Shown: piece by piece, positions 16,815 to 58,687 of the stretch
Numbering within the stretch: position 1 is the first letter of the stretch
How the letters are laid out: the number at the start of each line of letters is the position of its first letter
Origin: Pseudomonas deceptionensis
GTDB taxonomy: Bacteria > Pseudomonadota > Gammaproteobacteria > Pseudomonadales > Pseudomonadaceae
NCBI RefSeq assembly: GCF_900106095.1
Contig: NZ_FNUD01000002.1
Span: 2,191,501 to 2,255,500, forward strand
Length of the DNA stretch: 64,000 bases
Direction: 5' to 3'
Position numbers and translations under genes: made by a program
Notes under the pieces: generated by a model
Told to the model about the DNA's origin: nothing
Seen by the model: the letters and a program-made list of their open reading frames with translations, nothing else
The model's database searches: none

Positions 16815-16890
16815 GGGTGATTAGCTCAGCTGGGAGAGCATCTGCCTTACAAGCAGAGGGTCGGCGGTTCGATCCCGTCATCACCCACCA
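16815..16890 (+). tRNA. tRNA-Val (anticodon TAC)
   Basis: A 76-base cloverleaf starting GGGTGATTAGCTCAGC, with anticodon TAC at 16848-16850 in loop CTTACAA, a GGTTCGATCC T-arm and encoded CCA. Identical in sequence to the copy at 17205. Confidence 0.98.
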
Positions 16891-16909
16891 TTCGCTCACA
16901 GTGTTACGC

Positions 16910-16986
16910 GCAGCGGTAGTTCAGTCGGTTAGAATACCGGCCTGTCACGCCGGGGGTCGCGGGTTCGAGTCCCGTCCGCTGCGCCA
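16910..16986 (+). tRNA. tRNA-Asp (anticodon GTC)
   Basis: A 77-base cloverleaf starting GCAGCGGTAGTTCAGTCGG, with anticodon GTC in the loop CTGTCAC, a GGTTCGAGTCC T-arm and encoded CCA. It lies 19 bases after tRNA-Val and is probably co-transcribed. Confidence 0.98.
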
Positions 16987-17204
16987 TTTTTTGTACCACA
17001 AGCCCATTGAACGCTTGTGGTTGGGGTAAAACAGCGTAGTGCTGGTTTTTCCCGAAAGGCTTCGGTTTGGCAGTTCGCTGCGAAATCAAAGAAGCAGGGC
17101 GTTGGAAACGGTTGTTTTTACGGGTTTTGAAAAAAACTTAAATAAAAACAACCACTTACACGAAAAGTGTGAGAGAATGCGCCCCGCAACGAGAGTGAAG
17201 TAAA

Positions 17205-17280
17205 GGGTGATTAGCTCAGCTGGGAGAGCATCTGCCTTACAAGCAGAGGGTCGGCGGTTCGATCCCGTCATCACCCACCA
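17205..17280 (+). tRNA. tRNA-Val (anticodon TAC), second copy
   Basis: Identical to the copy at 16815. It lies about 220 bases after the first tRNA-Asp. A GAGAATGCGCC block upstream (17173-17183) resembles the -10/discriminator of the first promoter but lacks a clear -35 box. Confidence 0.98.
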
Positions 17281-17299
17281 CTTACTTTCAATGTTACGC

Positions 17300-17376
17300 G
17301 CAGCGGTAGTTCAGTCGGTTAGAATACCGGCCTGTCACGCCGGGGGTCGCGGGTTCGAGTCCCGTCCGCTGCGCCA
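17300..17376 (+). tRNA. tRNA-Asp (anticodon GTC), second copy
   Basis: Identical to the copy at 16910, with encoded CCA, 19 bases after the second tRNA-Val. It is followed by a terminator at 17418. Confidence 0.98.
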
Positions 17377-52703: not shown

Positions 52704-52779
52704 GTCCCCTTCGTCTAGTGGCCTAGGACACCGCCCTTTCACGGCGGTAACAGGGGTTCGAGTCCCCTAGGGGACGCCA
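52704..52779 (+). tRNA. tRNA-Glu (anticodon TTC), copy 1
   Basis: A 76-base cloverleaf starting GTCCCCTTCGTCTAGTGG, with anticodon TTC in CCTTTCACGG, a GGTTCGAGTCC T-arm and encoded CCA. Confidence 0.98.
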
Positions 52780-52781
52780 TT

Positions 52782-52857
<76 letters not shown>

Positions 52858-52958
52858 TTTTTAAGCAGCTTCGCTTTCGGGCGGTGCTGAGTGAAAGCCA
52901 AGACACTAACTTTTGTTAATGATCTGGCACTGAAATGTACGTGTACATTTCGGGCAAC

Positions 52959-53034
52959 GTCCCCTTCGTCTAGTGGCCTAGGACACCGCCCTTTCACGGC
53001 GGTAACAGGGGTTCGAGTCCCCTAGGGGACGCCA
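52959..53034 (+). tRNA. tRNA-Glu (anticodon TTC), copy 2
   Basis: Identical to copy 1, repeating at 255 bases. The preceding spacer has a 9-base perfect hairpin GAAATGTAC/GTACATTTC (52932-52951). Confidence 0.98.
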
Positions 53035-53039
53035 TTATT

Positions 53040-53115
<76 letters not shown>

Positions 53116-53217
53116 TTTTTAAGCAGCTTCGCTCTCGGGCGGTGCTGAGTGAAAGCCAGGACAACAACTTCGGTTATTGGTCTGGCACTGAAATGTACAG
53201 TGTACGTTTCGGGCAAC

Positions 53218-53293
53218 GTCCCCTTCGTCTAGTGGCCTAGGACACCGCCCTTTCACGGCGGTAACAGGGGTTCGAGTCCCCTAGGGGACGCCA
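53218..53293 (+). tRNA. tRNA-Glu (anticodon TTC), copy 3
   Basis: Identical to copies 1 and 2, repeating at 259 bases. The spacer hairpin before it (53190-53210) differs from that of copy 2 by a substitution and a one-base longer loop. Confidence 0.98.
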
Positions 53294-53298
53294 TTATT

Positions 53299-53374
<76 letters not shown>

Positions 53375-53441: not shown

Positions 53442-53556
53442 CGTTTGCGCGTTTTATTTCCCCGGCGCAACGCGCTCTAAGCTAATAACCAAATAATCTG
53501 CAAGAAAAGTGCGACTGGCGCCACACAAGGATTCAAACCTGTTTTGAGTTCTTTAG

Positions 53557-54498
53557 ATGTCGCATTACTTCGATAGCGCCCAGCGGCGTGATATCCGGGC
53601 TTTGTCCCGCACCTTCATCGGCCGCACCCAGTGGCCTACCTGGCTGTTGCTGATAGCGGTTCCCGCTGCCTGGTTTGCCTTGCTGCTGGGTAGTCCGGTG
53701 ATAGGGGCTGGGTGGACCATTATTTTGCTGATTCCCGTCGTGGTGCTGTGGATGTCAGTGCAGCACGAGTTGTTGCACGGGCATCCCACGCGTTCTGTTT
53801 GGTTCAACAAACTGCTGGGTTATGCCCCCTTCGCCGTCTGGTACCCGTACACCCTGTACCGCGACAGCCATTTGCATCACCACCGTGACCATGATCTGAC
53901 CCTGCCTGGCGTTGACCCCGAAAGCCGATACCTGAGCCAGGCTCATTGGCAGGGCAGCTCCAGGCTGCTGTGGGGGTTGCTCTGGCTGAATAAAACGGTG
54001 CTGGGCCGAGTGCTGCTGGGGCCGCCATTGGCATTGTTCGGGCTGGCCACTGAAGAGTGGCAGCGATTGCGCCGGGGTGACCGTCAGGCCTGGCTGATGT
54101 GGCTGACCCACGGCAGTTTGACGCTGTTGATGTTCGGCTTTATTGCCCTCTACAGTGAGATATCGGTCTGGCAATACGTGTTTCTGGTCACCGTGCCGGT
54201 TTTATCGGTGGGAATGGTCCGTTCTTTTTATGAGCATCGCCCCGCCGAGCGTCCCGAGCAGCGCACGGTGCTTAACGAAGCCGGCTGGCCCTGGACCTGG
54301 CTGTTCCTGAACCTGAATTTGCACTTGGTGCACCACGATCTGCCGGGTTTGCCGTGGTTCCATCTGCCCAGGGTGTATCAGGCGCGGCGTGAGCAGTGGC
54401 AACAGCGCAGTGGTGGTTTTCTGGTGCAAGGCTACGGCGAGTTGATGCGCCGTCACGCGGTGCAGGCGATTGATAGCCCGCAGCATCCGTTCAGTTAA
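53557..54498 (+). CDS. Membrane fatty acid desaturase
   Basis: A 313-residue di-iron membrane desaturase/hydroxylase. The three histidine boxes are HELLHGH (H70-H76), HLHHH (H105-H109) and HLVHH near residue 260, set among hydrophobic segments. It introduces a double bond or hydroxyl group into an acyl chain or related lipid; the exact substrate is unknown. It is followed 19 bases later by the PhnD-like gene, so the two may share a transcript. Confidence 0.88.
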   Translation: MSHYFDSAQRRDIRALSRTFIGRTQWPTWLLLIAVPAAWFALLLGSPVIGAGWTIILLIPVVVLWMSVQHELLHGHPTRSVWFNKLLGYAPFAVWYPYTLYRDSHLHHHRDHDLTLPGVDPESRYLSQAHWQGSSRLLWGLLWLNKTVLGRVLLGPPLALFGLATEEWQRLRRGDRQAWLMWLTHGSLTLLMFGFIALYSEISVWQYVFLVTVPVLSVGMVRSFYEHRPAERPEQRTVLNEAGWPWTWLFLNLNLHLVHHDLPGLPWFHLPRVYQARREQWQQRSGGFLVQGYGELMRRHAVQAIDSPQHPFS

Positions 54499-54517: not shown

Positions 54518-55309
54518 ATGTCAGGCCGTTATGCCGAACTGACGATGTACGTTGCACCCCGGCAAGTCAGCGTGGCCAGTGAGCAGTGGCTGACGCGAGT
54601 CCTTGAGCTGTTGCAGGTCAACCGCCGCGATGCCCGTGGGCTTGGTTTGCTGGAGTTGTTCCGGGCGCCGGAGCTGTTGTTGGCCCAGACCTGCGGTTAT
54701 CCGCTGTTGACCCAGCTGCGCGGGCAGGTGCAACTGATTGGCCGCCCGCGCTATGAATGGCCTGACAGCAGTGGCGGAACGCATTGCAGCGTGATCGTCA
54801 GCCGCGCTGGCGATTCGCGTCGTGATCTGGCGGACTTCAAAGGCAGTCGCGGGGTGATCAATGATCTGAACTCCAACAGTGGCATGAACCTGTTTCGGCA
54901 TCGGCTGGCGCCCTTGCAGCAGGGAGGGCAGTTTTTTGCATCGGTGGCCATCAGCGGCGCGCATCAACAAAGCCTGCGCCGGGTGCGAGAGGGCTGGGCC
55001 GACCTTGCATCCATCGACAGCGTGACGTTTGCCTATCTGGCGCATTACGCGCCCGCAGAGGTGGCCGGGATACGCATAGTGGCGCGTACTGCCAGCAGTC
55101 CGACCTTGCCTTACATCACAGCGCTCAGTACGGGGCGCGAGGGCGCAGAGCGCATTCGCGAGGCGATGAATACGGCGTTGCAGCAATTGCCACAGGTGGC
55201 TGCAACCCTGGGCGTGCAGGAAGTCTTGCCTGCCAGCGAAGCGGATTATCAGAAGGTGCTCGATTATCGGCAGGAAGCAATTGAATACGGATTTGCGGAG
55301 CTGGCTTAG
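54518..55309 (+). CDS. PhnD-like substrate-binding domain protein lacking a signal peptide
   Basis: A 263-residue protein of the phosphate/phosphite/phosphonate-binding (PhnD-like) periplasmic-protein fold: TCGYPLLTQLRGQVQLIGRP, DLADFKGSRGVINDLNSNSG, and GWADLASIDSVTFAYL. It begins MSGRYAELTMYVAP with no signal sequence, so it should be cytoplasmic unless exported another way. GAGGAG lies before the ATG. No phosphonate transporter genes are nearby; it may be a cytoplasmic ligand sensor. Confidence 0.82.
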   Translation: MSGRYAELTMYVAPRQVSVASEQWLTRVLELLQVNRRDARGLGLLELFRAPELLLAQTCGYPLLTQLRGQVQLIGRPRYEWPDSSGGTHCSVIVSRAGDSRRDLADFKGSRGVINDLNSNSGMNLFRHRLAPLQQGGQFFASVAISGAHQQSLRRVREGWADLASIDSVTFAYLAHYAPAEVAGIRIVARTASSPTLPYITALSTGREGAERIREAMNTALQQLPQVAATLGVQEVLPASEADYQKVLDYRQEAIEYGFAELA

Positions 55310-55440
55310 CGGAGTTGTCTTTAATATCTAAAACGAATAAACAAATGTTTTTTTAGTATTTAAATTGAATATAGGCATTTGATAGGATCGCCGCACCGGA
55401 TCACCGGACATACCGTTTTTATGACTCTATTGGAGCCTTT
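55310..55440. other. AT-rich leader of the sigma factor/ABC operon
   Basis: AT-rich up to about 55380, then CACCGGATCACCGG (a short direct repeat of CACCGG) and TTGGAG as ribosome-binding site. No clear Fur box or terminator is visible. The probable promoter of the operon that starts at 55441 lies here. Confidence 0.4.
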
Positions 55441-55968
55441 ATGTCCGGCACCGACATCGCTCACCGCGACCATGTGAGCTTGCTTTTCCGCACCCACTAT
55501 CTGTGGCTGCATGCGAGCTTATGCCGCTACCCCGATTCCAGCAGCTACGCTGAAGACATCGCGGCCGATACGTTTGCCCAACTGTTAAGTGCTCCACAAG
55601 AGATCGCCATCCGTGAACCGCGTGCGCTGTTGACGACCATCGCCCGTCGTTTGATCTATCAACTGTGGCGTCGCCGGGATGTGGAGCGAGCTTATCTGAT
55701 GACCTTGCAGCAACACGAACCCATGCTCTCGCCATCCCCTGAGGCGCTGGCTCAACATCATCAAGCCTTGCAGATGATTGACGCACAACTCGATGGTTTG
55801 CCCGAAAAGGTCAAGGCGACCTTTGTGCTCTCGCGGGTCCATGGTCTGACCTATCCCGAGATCGCACGGCAATTGGGTATTTCCCGGCGCTCCGTCAGCG
55901 ACTATATGACCCGCGCGCTCAGTCGCTGCCTGACAACCCACACCTCCATAACAAGAGAATCAGTATGA
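55441..55968 (+). CDS. Orphan FecI-like ECF sigma factor
   Basis: A 175-residue ECF sigma factor close in style to FecI proteins. Region 2 reads LLFRTHYLWLHASLCRYPDS and AEDIAADTFAQLLSAPQE; region 4 has LPEKVKATFVLSRVHGLTYP and EIARQLGISRRSVSDYMTRA. There is no FecR or TonB receptor gene beside it. Its stop overlaps the start of a glycine-betaine-type binding protein by four bases (ATGA), so it is translationally coupled to an ABC transporter operon, an unusual setting for this sigma class. Confidence 0.92.
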   Translation: MSGTDIAHRDHVSLLFRTHYLWLHASLCRYPDSSSYAEDIAADTFAQLLSAPQEIAIREPRALLTTIARRLIYQLWRRRDVERAYLMTLQQHEPMLSPSPEALAQHHQALQMIDAQLDGLPEKVKATFVLSRVHGLTYPEIARQLGISRRSVSDYMTRALSRCLTTHTSITRESV

Positions 55969-56987
55969 CTAACCTTAAGAAATGGCTTGGTGGTTCGCTG
56001 TTGGCATGTGCACTTTTCACCCAGCCGGTGCTGGCAGACACTCCGGCCACCCCTGTTCACTTCGGCGATATCACCTGGGAGAGCGGCAGCCTGATCACTG
56101 AAGTGCTGCGCCTGATCACCGAAAAAGGCTACGGTGTTGCGACCGACACTTTGCCCGGCAGCACGGTCAGCCTTGAGACTGCGTTGTCCAAAAATGATAT
56201 CCAAGTAATTGGCGAAGAGTGGGCAGGGCGCAGCCCCGTGTGGATAAAAGCCGAAGCCGAAGGCAAGGTGTTTGGCCTGGGCGATATCGTCAAGAACGCC
56301 AGTGAAGGCTGGTGGGTGCCCGAGTACGTGATCAAGGGCGATGCGGCCAAGGGCATCGAGCCTCTGGCGCCGGACTTGAAAACAGTCGACGACCTCAAGC
56401 GATACAAAGACGTGTTCCGTGACCAGGAAGACCCTACGCGCGGGCGCTTCCTCAATAGCCCGACGGGCTGGACCTCCGAAATCGTCAACAGTCAAAAGCT
56501 CAAGGCCTATGGCCTGGACAAAGACTTCGTGAACTTCCGCACCGGCTCGGGTGCGGCACTGGATGCCGAGGTCAGCTCCTCGATCCGCCGCGCCAAGCCG
56601 GTGTTGTTCTACTACTGGTCTCCGACCCCGCTGATTGGCCGCTACAAGCTGATCAAACTCGAAGAACCGGCCTTTGATGCCGAAGCCTGGAAAACTCTGG
56701 CCGACGTCAATAACCCCAACCCCAAGGGCACGCGTTCGTTGCCGGCCAAACTGGCGATCGGGGTTTCGGCGCCGTTCAAAGCGCAATACCCGCAGTTGGT
56801 CGAGTTCTATGAGAAGGTCGATTTCCCTATCGATCTGCTGAACACGACCCTGGCCCAGATGAGCGAAAAACGCACCGAACCGCGTAAGGCCGCTGAAGCC
56901 TTTTTACGTGATCAGCCGCAAATCTGGCAGGCGTGGGTCACCCATGACGCGGCTCAGAAAGTCGATGCAGCGCTCAAATCCAATTAA
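55965..56987 (+). CDS. Glycine betaine/quaternary-amine ABC transporter binding protein
   Basis: A 340-residue OpuAC/ProX-type periplasmic binding protein with a signal peptide ending VLADT near residue 25. It is rich in the tryptophans and tyrosines that form aromatic cages for quaternary amines (GEEWAGRSPVW, EGWWVPEYV, YYWSPT). The likely ligand is glycine betaine, choline, carnitine or a related compound. First transporter gene of the operon, with the permease 21 bases downstream. Confidence 0.9.
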   Translation: MTNLKKWLGGSLLACALFTQPVLADTPATPVHFGDITWESGSLITEVLRLITEKGYGVATDTLPGSTVSLETALSKNDIQVIGEEWAGRSPVWIKAEAEGKVFGLGDIVKNASEGWWVPEYVIKGDAAKGIEPLAPDLKTVDDLKRYKDVFRDQEDPTRGRFLNSPTGWTSEIVNSQKLKAYGLDKDFVNFRTGSGAALDAEVSSSIRRAKPVLFYYWSPTPLIGRYKLIKLEEPAFDAEAWKTLADVNNPNPKGTRSLPAKLAIGVSAPFKAQYPQLVEFYEKVDFPIDLLNTTLAQMSEKRTEPRKAAEAFLRDQPQIWQAWVTHDAAQKVDAALKSN

Positions 56988-57008
56988 CGCACTGAATCTG
57001 AGTACTTC

Positions 57009-57860
57009 ATGTTTCCTGACAATCTGACGTTTTCCATCGCAGGGTGGGTCAATGACGGGGTTGATGCGCTGGTCAGCAATTACGGCGATGTGTTCCGGCA
57101 CATCTCCGACACCTTGCTCTGGGCCATCATTAACCTCGAAAACCTGCTGCGCATCACCCCGTGGTGGCTGATGCTGGCCATTGTCGGTGCTATCGCCTGG
57201 CACGCTACGCGCAAGGTTTTAAGCACCTTGATGATTGTCAGCCTGCTGTTTTTGGTCGGGGCGGTTGGCCTGTGGGACAAGCTGATGCAAACCCTTGCGC
57301 TGATGATGGTAGCCACGGTGATCTCGGTGTTGCTGGGGATTCCGCTGGGGATTCTTGCCGCCCGCAGTAACCGCCTGCGAGCGGTGCTGATGCCGTTGCT
57401 GGACATCATGCAAACCATGCCCAGCTTCGTTTACCTGATTCCGGTGCTGATGCTGTTCGGGCTGGGCAAGGTCCCGGCGATTTTTGCCACGGTGATTTAT
57501 GCCGTACCGCCGCTGATCCGCCTCACCGATCTTGGGTTGCGCCAGGTTGACCGCGAGGTGATGGAAGCGATCAATGCCTTTGGCGCCAACCCCTGGCAGC
57601 AGCTGTTTGGCGTGCAATTGCCGCTGGCTATGCCCAGCATCATGGCCGGGATCAACCAGACCACGATGATGGCGCTGTCGATGGTGGTGATCGCCTCGAT
57701 GATCGGTGCCCGGGGCCTGGGCGAGGATGTGCTGGTGGGGATTCAGACGCTCAACGTCGGCAAAGGGCTGGAAGCAGGGTTGGCCATCGTCATTCTGGCA
57801 GTGGTGATTGACCGTATCACTCAAGCCTATGGCCGCCCTCGGCATGGAGGCCACGAATGA
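57009..57860 (+). CDS. ABC transporter permease, ProW-type
   Basis: A 283-residue inner membrane permease with six to seven membrane segments. It has the typical transport-domain coupling helix (EVMEAINAFGANPWQQLFGVQLPLAMPSIM). It overlaps the ATPase gene by four bases (ATGA). It forms the channel of the quaternary-amine importer. Confidence 0.94.
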   Translation: MFPDNLTFSIAGWVNDGVDALVSNYGDVFRHISDTLLWAIINLENLLRITPWWLMLAIVGAIAWHATRKVLSTLMIVSLLFLVGAVGLWDKLMQTLALMMVATVISVLLGIPLGILAARSNRLRAVLMPLLDIMQTMPSFVYLIPVLMLFGLGKVPAIFATVIYAVPPLIRLTDLGLRQVDREVMEAINAFGANPWQQLFGVQLPLAMPSIMAGINQTTMMALSMVVIASMIGARGLGEDVLVGIQTLNVGKGLEAGLAIVILAVVIDRITQAYGRPRHGGHE

Positions 57861-58687
57861 GTGAAGTGGTGGTCAACAAGATCGACGTGCGCAACGTCTT
57901 CAAGGTGTTCGGCAACCGGGAAAAGGAGGTGATGGCGCTGATTCGCGATGGCAAGAGCAAGGACGAGGTGCTCGCCAAAACCGGTTGTGTGGTGGGGATC
58001 AACGACCTCTCACTCTCGATTCGGGCGGGGGAGGTGTTCGTCATCATGGGGTTGTCGGGTTCGGGAAAGTCGACGCTGGTGCGCCACCTCAACCGTCTGA
58101 TCGACCCTACCAGCGGCCAGATCCTGGTGGACGGTGAAGACATCCTGGATTACGACATGCCTGCGTTGCGCCAGTTCCGGCGCCACAAAATCAGCATGGT
58201 GTTCCAGAATTTCGGCCTGCTGCCCCATCGCAACGTACTGGAAAACGTCGCTTATGGCCTTAAGGTACGGGGCGAGAGCCAGGCGCAGTGCGATGAGCGC
58301 GCCCGGCACTGGGTCACGGTGGTTGGGCTGCAGGGGTACGAGCAGGCGTTTGTCCATCAGCTGTCAGGCGGTATGCGTCAGCGTGTCGGGCTGGCCCGGG
58401 CGTTGGCGACCGACACCGATATCATCCTGATGGACGAGGCCTTCAGCGCCCTCGACCCGTTGATCCGCGCCGAGATGCAGGACCAACTGCTGGAGCTGCA
58501 ACGCACACTGCAAAAGACCATCGTATTTATCACCCATGACCTGGACGAAGCGCTGCGCATTGGCAATCGCATCGCTGTGCTCAGGGACGGGCAGTTGATT
58601 CAAGTCGGCACGCCGCAGGAAATTCTGCTGACGCCTGCCGATGATTACGTGGATCGTTTTGTGCAGCGTCGGCATGCTCGCACTTGA
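57857..58687 (+). CDS. ABC transporter ATP-binding protein, ProV-type without CBS domains
   Basis: A 276-residue ATPase. Walker A is GLSGSGKST (65-73), the signature LSGGMRQR (169-176), Walker B IILMDE (189-194) and the switch histidine ITHD. The N-terminal linker VMALIRDGKSKDEVLAKTG is typical of ProV. The usual C-terminal CBS domains, which sense osmotic conditions in OpuA, are absent (ProV is about 400 residues), favouring uptake of a nutrient over osmoprotection. Confidence 0.94.
   Translation: MSEVVVNKIDVRNVFKVFGNREKEVMALIRDGKSKDEVLAKTGCVVGINDLSLSIRAGEVFVIMGLSGSGKSTLVRHLNRLIDPTSGQILVDGEDILDYDMPALRQFRRHKISMVFQNFGLLPHRNVLENVAYGLKVRGESQAQCDERARHWVTVVGLQGYEQAFVHQLSGGMRQRVGLARALATDTDIILMDEAFSALDPLIRAEMQDQLLELQRTLQKTIVFITHDLDEALRIGNRIAVLRDGQLIQVGTPQEILLTPADDYVDRFVQRRHART

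Follow-up and report, generated by a model that had tools for sequence, protein, structure and literature searches.

A FecI-like sigma factor of Pseudomonas that probably lost its FecR and receptor and kept a candidate promoter before a desaturase–phnD pair

We analysed the neighbourhood of a gene for a FecI-like sigma factor in a 64,000-nucleotide stretch of Pseudomonas deceptionensis DNA, here called the window (RefSeq assembly GCF_900106095.1, contig NZ_FNUD01000002.1, positions 2,191,501 to 2,255,500; coordinates count from its first base). FecI activity is described as FecR-dependent, with FecR acting as a brake or as an essential helper. An earlier note made from the sequence alone had pointed out that this sigma gene lies without a FecR or receptor gene, that it overlaps (ATGA) the gene for a betaine-type binding protein followed by a permease and a CBS-less ATPase, and that a FecI/FecR/receptor set stands in contrast to it at 17.6-21.6 kb of the window. 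Reading the locus by open reading frames and Pfam matches bore this out: the sigma gene is intact, there is no FecR-type regulator or TonB receptor beside it in the window locus, and the contrasting set consists of receptor, FecR and sigma genes on the minus strand. The locus contains the following features.

53497..53525, plus strand: candidate sigma-dependent promoter, TCTGCAAG-N17-CACA, beginning 60 nucleotides upstream of the desaturase ATG
53557..54498, plus strand: desaturase of the FA_desaturase family, 313 residues (PF00487, 115 bits), kept upstream of sigma in relatives and probably the first gene targeted by sigma
54518..55309, plus strand: PhnD-like protein, 263 residues (PF12974, 57.3 bits), kept upstream of sigma in relatives
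55340..55440, plus strand: conserved sigma leader or promoter region, with an AT-rich box, TTGATAGGATC at 55379-55389, the direct repeat CACCGGATCACCGGACAT at 55394-55411 and GGAGCC at 55432-55437
55441..55968, plus strand: FecI-like sigma factor without FecR or receptor, 175 residues (PF04542, 35.1 bits; PF08281, 55.5 bits)
55965..55968, plus strand: ATGA overlap of the sigma stop and the binding-protein start (a -4 overlap, found in 58 of the 84 fecR-less rows described below)
55965..56987, plus strand: OpuAC-family periplasmic binding protein, 340 residues (PF04069, 185 bits)
57009..57860, plus strand: ABC permease, 283 residues (Pfam BPD_transp_1)
57857..58687, plus strand: ABC ATPase, 276 residues (ABC_tran; TIGR01186, 355.2 bits, cut-off 326.6)

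The window sigma factor consists of sigma regions 2 and 4, both matched by Pfam above the cut-offs. It scored below the curated FecI models (141.8 bits for NF041727, cut-off 260; 167.6 for the subfamily model NF008889, cut-off 181), and by these scores it is related to FecI and is not FecI itself. Iron or siderophore genes were not recognised next to the sigma locus in the window, and no plus-strand intrinsic terminator was reported there between phnD and sigma. A hydrophobic leader or signal peptide is not evident in the PhnD-like protein, as judged by eye. Permease and ATPase genes meet in a second ATGA overlap, and a CBS domain was not among the Pfam matches of the window ATPase.

We compared gene order across a genus sample of 298 Pseudomonas genomes, the P. 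deceptionensis genome included. A sigma orthologue (E up to 1e-40) was present in 94 of them, which shows that the layout is not unique to the strain and rules out a strain-specific oddity; PhnD-like genes were found in 116. A separate scan gave 27 named sigma loci, 26 of them from Pseudomonas. The desaturase and PhnD-like genes precede sigma in 92 of the 93 neighbourhoods besides that of the window, the exception (L128) beginning at a contig end. This order confirms the earlier suggestion that the PhnD-like gene is part of the module and, with the -4 overlap that is also kept in relatives, indicates that the layout is more than chance. Before building a tree we left out two loci without desaturase or phnD (L020 and L128), one without sigma (L132), one from Chitinophaga (L027), repeats of others (L129-L131) and 10 identical rows. 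The 108 remaining loci, or rows, are 24 complete ones, 83 without fecR and receptor and one with the receptor only; the 84 fecR-less rows comprise 9 from the fragi clade, 49 from the largest clade, 7 from a seven-row clade and 19 termed recent. L057 ends soon after sigma, and L150 has little upstream sequence.

Complete loci, with fecR and a TonB receptor gene between sigma and the binding protein, were found in 17 of the 94 sigma-bearing genomes. Receptor orthologues (77-95% identity, E up to 1e-200) occurred in exactly 18 of the 298 genomes, these 17 and one with a truncated receptor, and seven further matches in the sample were relatives at 45-47%. The P. deceptionensis genome has no receptor orthologue, its best match being 32% over part of the length; a receptor relocated elsewhere was ruled out by searches of the genus sample (E 1e-200) and of this genome (E 1e-10). 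L058, which shares a contig with the P. agarici locus L021, has lost fecR, and its receptor is short of the first 91 residues, the expected position of the signalling domain (STN), which in the complete locus L006 scored 24.3 bits, under the 28.4 cut-off.

Some lineages carry scars of this loss. Sigma proteins of complete rows have 168-173 residues. In four of the 19 recently fecR-less rows (L012, L057, L061 and L067) the sigma protein ends in ...TRLSYDF, which is the receptor terminus, and in two other such rows (L065 and L069) it carries other receptor-tail residues. That of L077 and L090 ends, by eye, within a repeat-like stretch that is located between fecR and receptor in complete loci. 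For the scarred lineages, these receptor scars rule out that a fecR-receptor cassette was inserted into a simpler locus; the old fecR-less clades are scarless, with no receptor remnant seen at the locus, and in the seven-row clade the sigma end is the ordinary one and a spacer separates it from the binding protein. On the tree of the desaturase and PhnD-like protein (108 rows), presence and absence require at least 16 changes, 9 of them forced by supported branches, and a losses-only count gives 19. Approximately unbiased (AU) tests on a 49-row tree, which held 16 of the 49 large-clade rows, the 9 fragi rows, the 7 of the seven-row clade and 17 of the 24 complete rows, rejected a single clade of the three old fecR-less groups (p 2.5e-5), as well as the pairings of fragi with the seven-row clade (4e-4) and of the large with the seven-row clade (1e-68). 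Judged from scars and trees, the fecR-less layout is derived, and fecR and receptor were lost several times in Pseudomonas.

By gene order, the binding protein has long stood downstream and was brought next to sigma by this loss. The -4 overlap is present in 9/9 fragi rows, 47/49 rows of the largest clade, 2/19 recent rows and 0/7 of the seven-row clade; it arose separately in L017 and L024 too and is therefore convergent. Permease and ATPase adjoin the binding protein only in the fragi clade, with the permease alone in L066 and L025. With the binding protein an old neighbour and the permease and ATPase together adjoining it in one clade only, the earlier idea that the transporter supplies a signal to sigma is not supported.

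A conserved block was first noticed between fecR and the receptor gene of complete loci. In a search of five genomes with part of this block, it was found upstream of the desaturase in two complete genomes and was absent in three fecR-less ones. A shorter core, TCTRCAAG-N17-CACA, occurs in desaturase upstream regions of every locus class (exact in 100/108 rows, with one mismatch in 8/108) and before the receptor gene in 24/24 complete loci. Exact copies per locus number two in all 24 complete loci, and one (75/83) or none (8/83) in loci without fecR and receptor; in fecR-less loci the sole exact copy sits upstream of the desaturase. Shuffled upstream regions gave a match with two mismatches or fewer in 16/2160 cases, the shuffles being of single bases; the rows are related by descent, and the motif counts are not independent. 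The earlier note had also proposed that sigma drives its own transport operon, and had suggested looking for a shared promoter pattern upstream of it. The motif was found within 150 bases upstream of sigma in 0/108 rows, which leaves that proposal without support; the shared pattern stands before the desaturase instead. The window copy is one of three exact matches in the P. deceptionensis genome. Across the sample, exact copies total 236 in the 94 sigma-bearing genomes (mean 2.51) versus 223 in the 204 sigma-free genomes (mean 1.09; rank test p 1.4e-16).

We also examined 24 phnD places and four others. The 24 come from every genome of the sample in which phnD occurs without sigma (22 in number), together with a second copy and a split contig. 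Eight loci (L143-L150) have phnD and the binding protein, without an intact sigma, desaturase or motif in the stretch examined. Eight phnD loci (L151, L152, L155-L159 and L162) have neither sigma nor the binding protein and stand beside other permeases; in L162 a desaturase end lies at the locus edge, with its upstream sequence outside the stretch examined. The motif was absent in five of the six sigma-less desaturase loci, namely the desaturase-phnD loci L153, L154, L160, L161 and L163. Three loci that stop at contig ends after phnD (L141, L142 and L164) were excluded from the sigma-less counts; in the genome of L164 (G199), sigma is on another contig. On the whole, it is the desaturase and the motif that sigma travels with, rather than the binding protein. 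The position of the motif upstream of the desaturase and its joint absence with sigma make the desaturase-phnD pair, not the transporter operon, the likely retained target of sigma. As a separate observation, the OpuAC binding protein that accompanies the second desaturase-phnD copy, L163, is a different one.

Selection on sigma was estimated from the ratio of nonsynonymous to synonymous substitution (dN/dS), by a simple counting method and from pairs with dS 0.1-1.5 only. The median for sigma was 0.145 in complete loci, 0.164 in the fragi clade, 0.203 in the large clade and 0.180 in the seven-row clade; for the desaturase it was 0.202, 0.104, 0.121 and 0.131, respectively. The ratio of sigma to desaturase is thus 1.4-1.7 fold in fecR-less clades versus 0.72 in complete loci. 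An ATG-started sigma frame of 160-219 codons is open in all 84 fecR-less rows, which were collected by similarity, so that badly broken sigma copies would escape; one sigma fragment was found, in L144. By these measures sigma is still under purifying selection, yet relaxed in all three regions tested.

We think that the locus is probably a cell-surface-signalling system that repeatedly lost its sensor and anti-sigma factor, and kept a FecR-free sigma and its target, the desaturase-phnD pair. Its ancestral order would have been desaturase, phnD-like gene, sigma, fecR, TonB receptor and OpuAC binding protein; an SsuA-type binding protein and two genes for enzymes would often have come after these. 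The receptor would have sensed a compound and FecR would have relayed the signal to sigma, which would have started transcription at TCTGCAAG-N17-CACA before the receptor gene and before the desaturase-phnD pair. The fecR and receptor genes would then have been lost in the fragi clade and several other lineages while sigma was kept, and in many lineages the sigma 3' end would have run into the binding-protein start. Sigma would now act free of FecR: the conserved leader and promoter of its gene would set how much of it is made, and this amount would determine the strength of the desaturase-phnD promoter. Readthrough may raise the expression of sigma and transporter; in its weak form, it may run from the desaturase promoter into both. 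From the sequences we infer the binding of sigma to the motif, its activity without FecR, its control, the readthrough and the transported compound. Losing the brake together with the sensor would leave sigma free, which fits the repeated viable loss and the kept motif.

FecR N-termini bind sigma region 4. Residue 132, in this region, is Q in 24/24 complete rows and R in 73/84 fecR-less rows (9/9 fragi, 49/49 large, 6/7 seven-row and 9/19 recent). This position was picked after viewing all positions, the direction of change is ambiguous, and independent pairs give weak evidence (on average 3.7/9 for and 0 against, median p 0.125). The change could be part of an adaptation to FecR loss. More broadly, we put forward, tentatively and as a real possibility, that FecI-type sigma factors of this group repeatedly evolved FecR independence and became plain regulators set by expression level.

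Several observations weigh against the reading of a FecR-free sigma with a retained target. FecI of Escherichia coli is inactive without FecR (PMC9249621). The motif occurs without sigma in L165, which has the desaturase but no phnD, and by itself in L166. L141 and L142 show desaturase, phnD and motif at a contig end, with no sigma anywhere in either genome, one of which is only 73% complete. A single loss common to the fragi and 49-row clades was not rejected (AU test, p 0.09). Sigma substitutions per tree length are 62.5 versus 131.9, about twofold on fecR-less branches, which is relic-like. The locus accounts for 105 of the 236 exact motif copies; the remaining copies average 1.39 per sigma-bearing genome, little above the 1.09 of sigma-free ones. 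This shows no sign of a wider regulon, and the motif excess is therefore mostly in the locus itself. The motif could also belong to another regulator.

The main rival, which we consider unlikely, is that sigma is a relic, inactive after the loss of FecR as E. coli FecI is, and kept only by translational coupling to the binding-protein gene. The raised sigma dN/dS relative to the desaturase in fecR-less clades would fit this, as would the eight loci with phnD and the binding protein but no intact sigma. However, in all eight of those loci the desaturase and motif are gone too, dN/dS of sigma is well under 1 in three fecR-less clades, the motif is retained in fecR-less loci (75/83 exact, the other 8 with one mismatch), and sigma is still intact in the 26 of 84 fecR-less rows that have no -4 overlap.

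A further possibility, which we regard as improbable, is that a FecR from another place in the genome controls the window sigma. The P. deceptionensis genome has 15 FecR domains, and for 14 of them a FecI-like sigma of their own is no more than about 1 kb away. The 15th (C2:4435963) has none that close: the nearest listed sigma is about 10 kb off, beside export genes; its region looks like a pyoverdine region, and it is presumably FpvR-like. That this FecR has no sigma close by speaks for such control, as does the fact that FpvR serves two sigma factors (PMC4256889). None of the 15 lies near the window sigma, however; the 15th is about 2.2 Mb away near another sigma, and the receptor that would feed such a system is absent from the genome.

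Least probable, and given very little credence here, is that sigma and transporter form one signalling unit, in which sigma drives the transport operon or the loaded transporter sets sigma activity: the ATGA overlap in a one-strand operon, its recurrence in 58/84 fecR-less rows and a motif copy before a hut-type operon with a related transporter in one genome (G130, below) speak for it, but the motif is missing from the 150 bases before sigma in every row and does not occur a second time in fecR-less loci, most rows show no linkage of permease and ATPase to sigma, the overlap varies between lineages and looks like a deletion by-product, and the hut-type region of P. deceptionensis has no motif copy within one mismatch, the closest having two.

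Besides a complete locus, the G130 genome carries another sigma-fecR-receptor set (L168). Its exact motif copy (L167 6934-6962, minus strand), whose spacer also matches (TCTGCAAGATTTCCTCGCCTTGATCCACA), stands before a urocanate hydratase (hutU) gene (TIGR01228, 1026.8 bits, cut-off 375), after which OpuAC transporter genes follow on the same strand. The urocanase match starts at residue 106 of an over-long frame, and the motif is upstream of the match. The hut-type operon of this one genome is a possible second sigma target.

The P. deceptionensis genome contains a second permease copy (88% identical) with an ATPase (81%) and a binding protein (47.5%) beside lyase-family genes, and the window permease and ATPase resemble this copy. 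The window binding protein scored below the cut-offs of the curated ProX and choline-binding equivalogs, and the same held across the transporter for ProW, ProV and ChoWV; the features of an OpuAC importer are present, with an OpuAC domain and a ProV-type ATPase (TIGR01186). The nearest solved relative of the binding protein is 7yle, the dimethylsulfoniopropionate (DMSP)-binding DmpX (PMC10030565). In the alignment with 7yle, 7 of the 8 DmpX pocket residues are matched, with alanine 153 replaced by threonine; this match is not specific, a HutX-like relative having most of those residues too by eye. We infer a betaine-, DMSP- or histidine-like solute as the transported compound. Further downstream, complete loci often have a gene for an SsuA-type binding protein, then an OCD-family gene (17/24 rows, truncated in one of them where the locus ends) and a gene for a HAL-like lyase (16/24), some rows stopping before these positions; fecR-less L018 has both the OCD-family and HAL-like genes. 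The HAL-like lyase is below the curated hutH cut-off. These genes hint at an amino-acid or organosulfur compound, and an ergothioneine-like substrate would be a guess from the lyase and OCD-family genes. L039 (4114-6596) is an example of a complete locus continuing with SsuA-type, OCD-family and HAL-like genes.

PvdS is not known to lie beside its own FecR and resembles the window sigma in this respect. It differs in being held by FpvR (PMC4256889), whereas the window sigma has no neighbouring FecR or receptor left. With FecI-FecR-FecA signalling (Fec, Fox and Fiu) the locus shares a sigma of the FecI kind, and its complete relatives share sigma, FecR and TonB receptor, in this order, and a common candidate promoter motif; the window locus differs in lacking FecR and receptor and in having the motif before desaturase-phnD. 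The IutY sigma/anti-sigma fusion is likewise an altered FecI-FecR pair but keeps its FecR part (PMC5411451). The ecf6 sigma of P. syringae B728a is also of the FecI type and near glycine betaine genes; it keeps its FecR, and betA did not depend on it (PMC3597554). The HutXWV/DmpXWV OpuAC transporters share the binding-protein family, an ATPase without a CBS match and the 88% permease copy beside lyase-family genes (for DmpX, PMC10030565), but the window binding protein and the copy there share only 47.5% identity. A search of open-access literature, available in part, found no FecR-less FecI factors.

Complete systems, recent scarred deletions and older FecR-less lineages within one genus amount to a natural experiment on the FecR dependence of FecI. 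Homologous sigma factors with and without their partner can be compared on the same promoter, and a candidate target promoter is available. If sigma is FecR-free, it may have become an independent regulator. That an overlap can arise by deletion is also a warning against taking operon overlap as a signalling link.

The block upstream of sigma, read by eye, is strongly conserved, with an AT-rich stretch, a TAGGAT-like element and the direct repeat ACCGGA-N2-ACCGGA, which is present in 101/108 rows and in 1/7 of the seven-row clade. No Rfam match pointed to an RNA element in the leader. In pattern searches of four or five genomes, the AT-rich block was found only at the sigma locus, and it was not found in the P. 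deceptionensis genome, where the version differs. The block had raised the suspicion that the sigma promoter is under sulfur or CysB control, which was not borne out by these searches; literature listings yielded no motif that could be used. In L104, about 1.4 kb separates phnD from sigma, probably an insertion, with both genes and the leader still present. Elsewhere in the P. deceptionensis genome (C2:4605372-4606196), a FecI-like sigma match and a FecR domain share one frame of 424 residues, as in the IutY fusion. The window also carries three tandem Glu-Gly tRNA pairs (52704-53374) and two tandem Val-Asp tRNA pairs (16815-17376).

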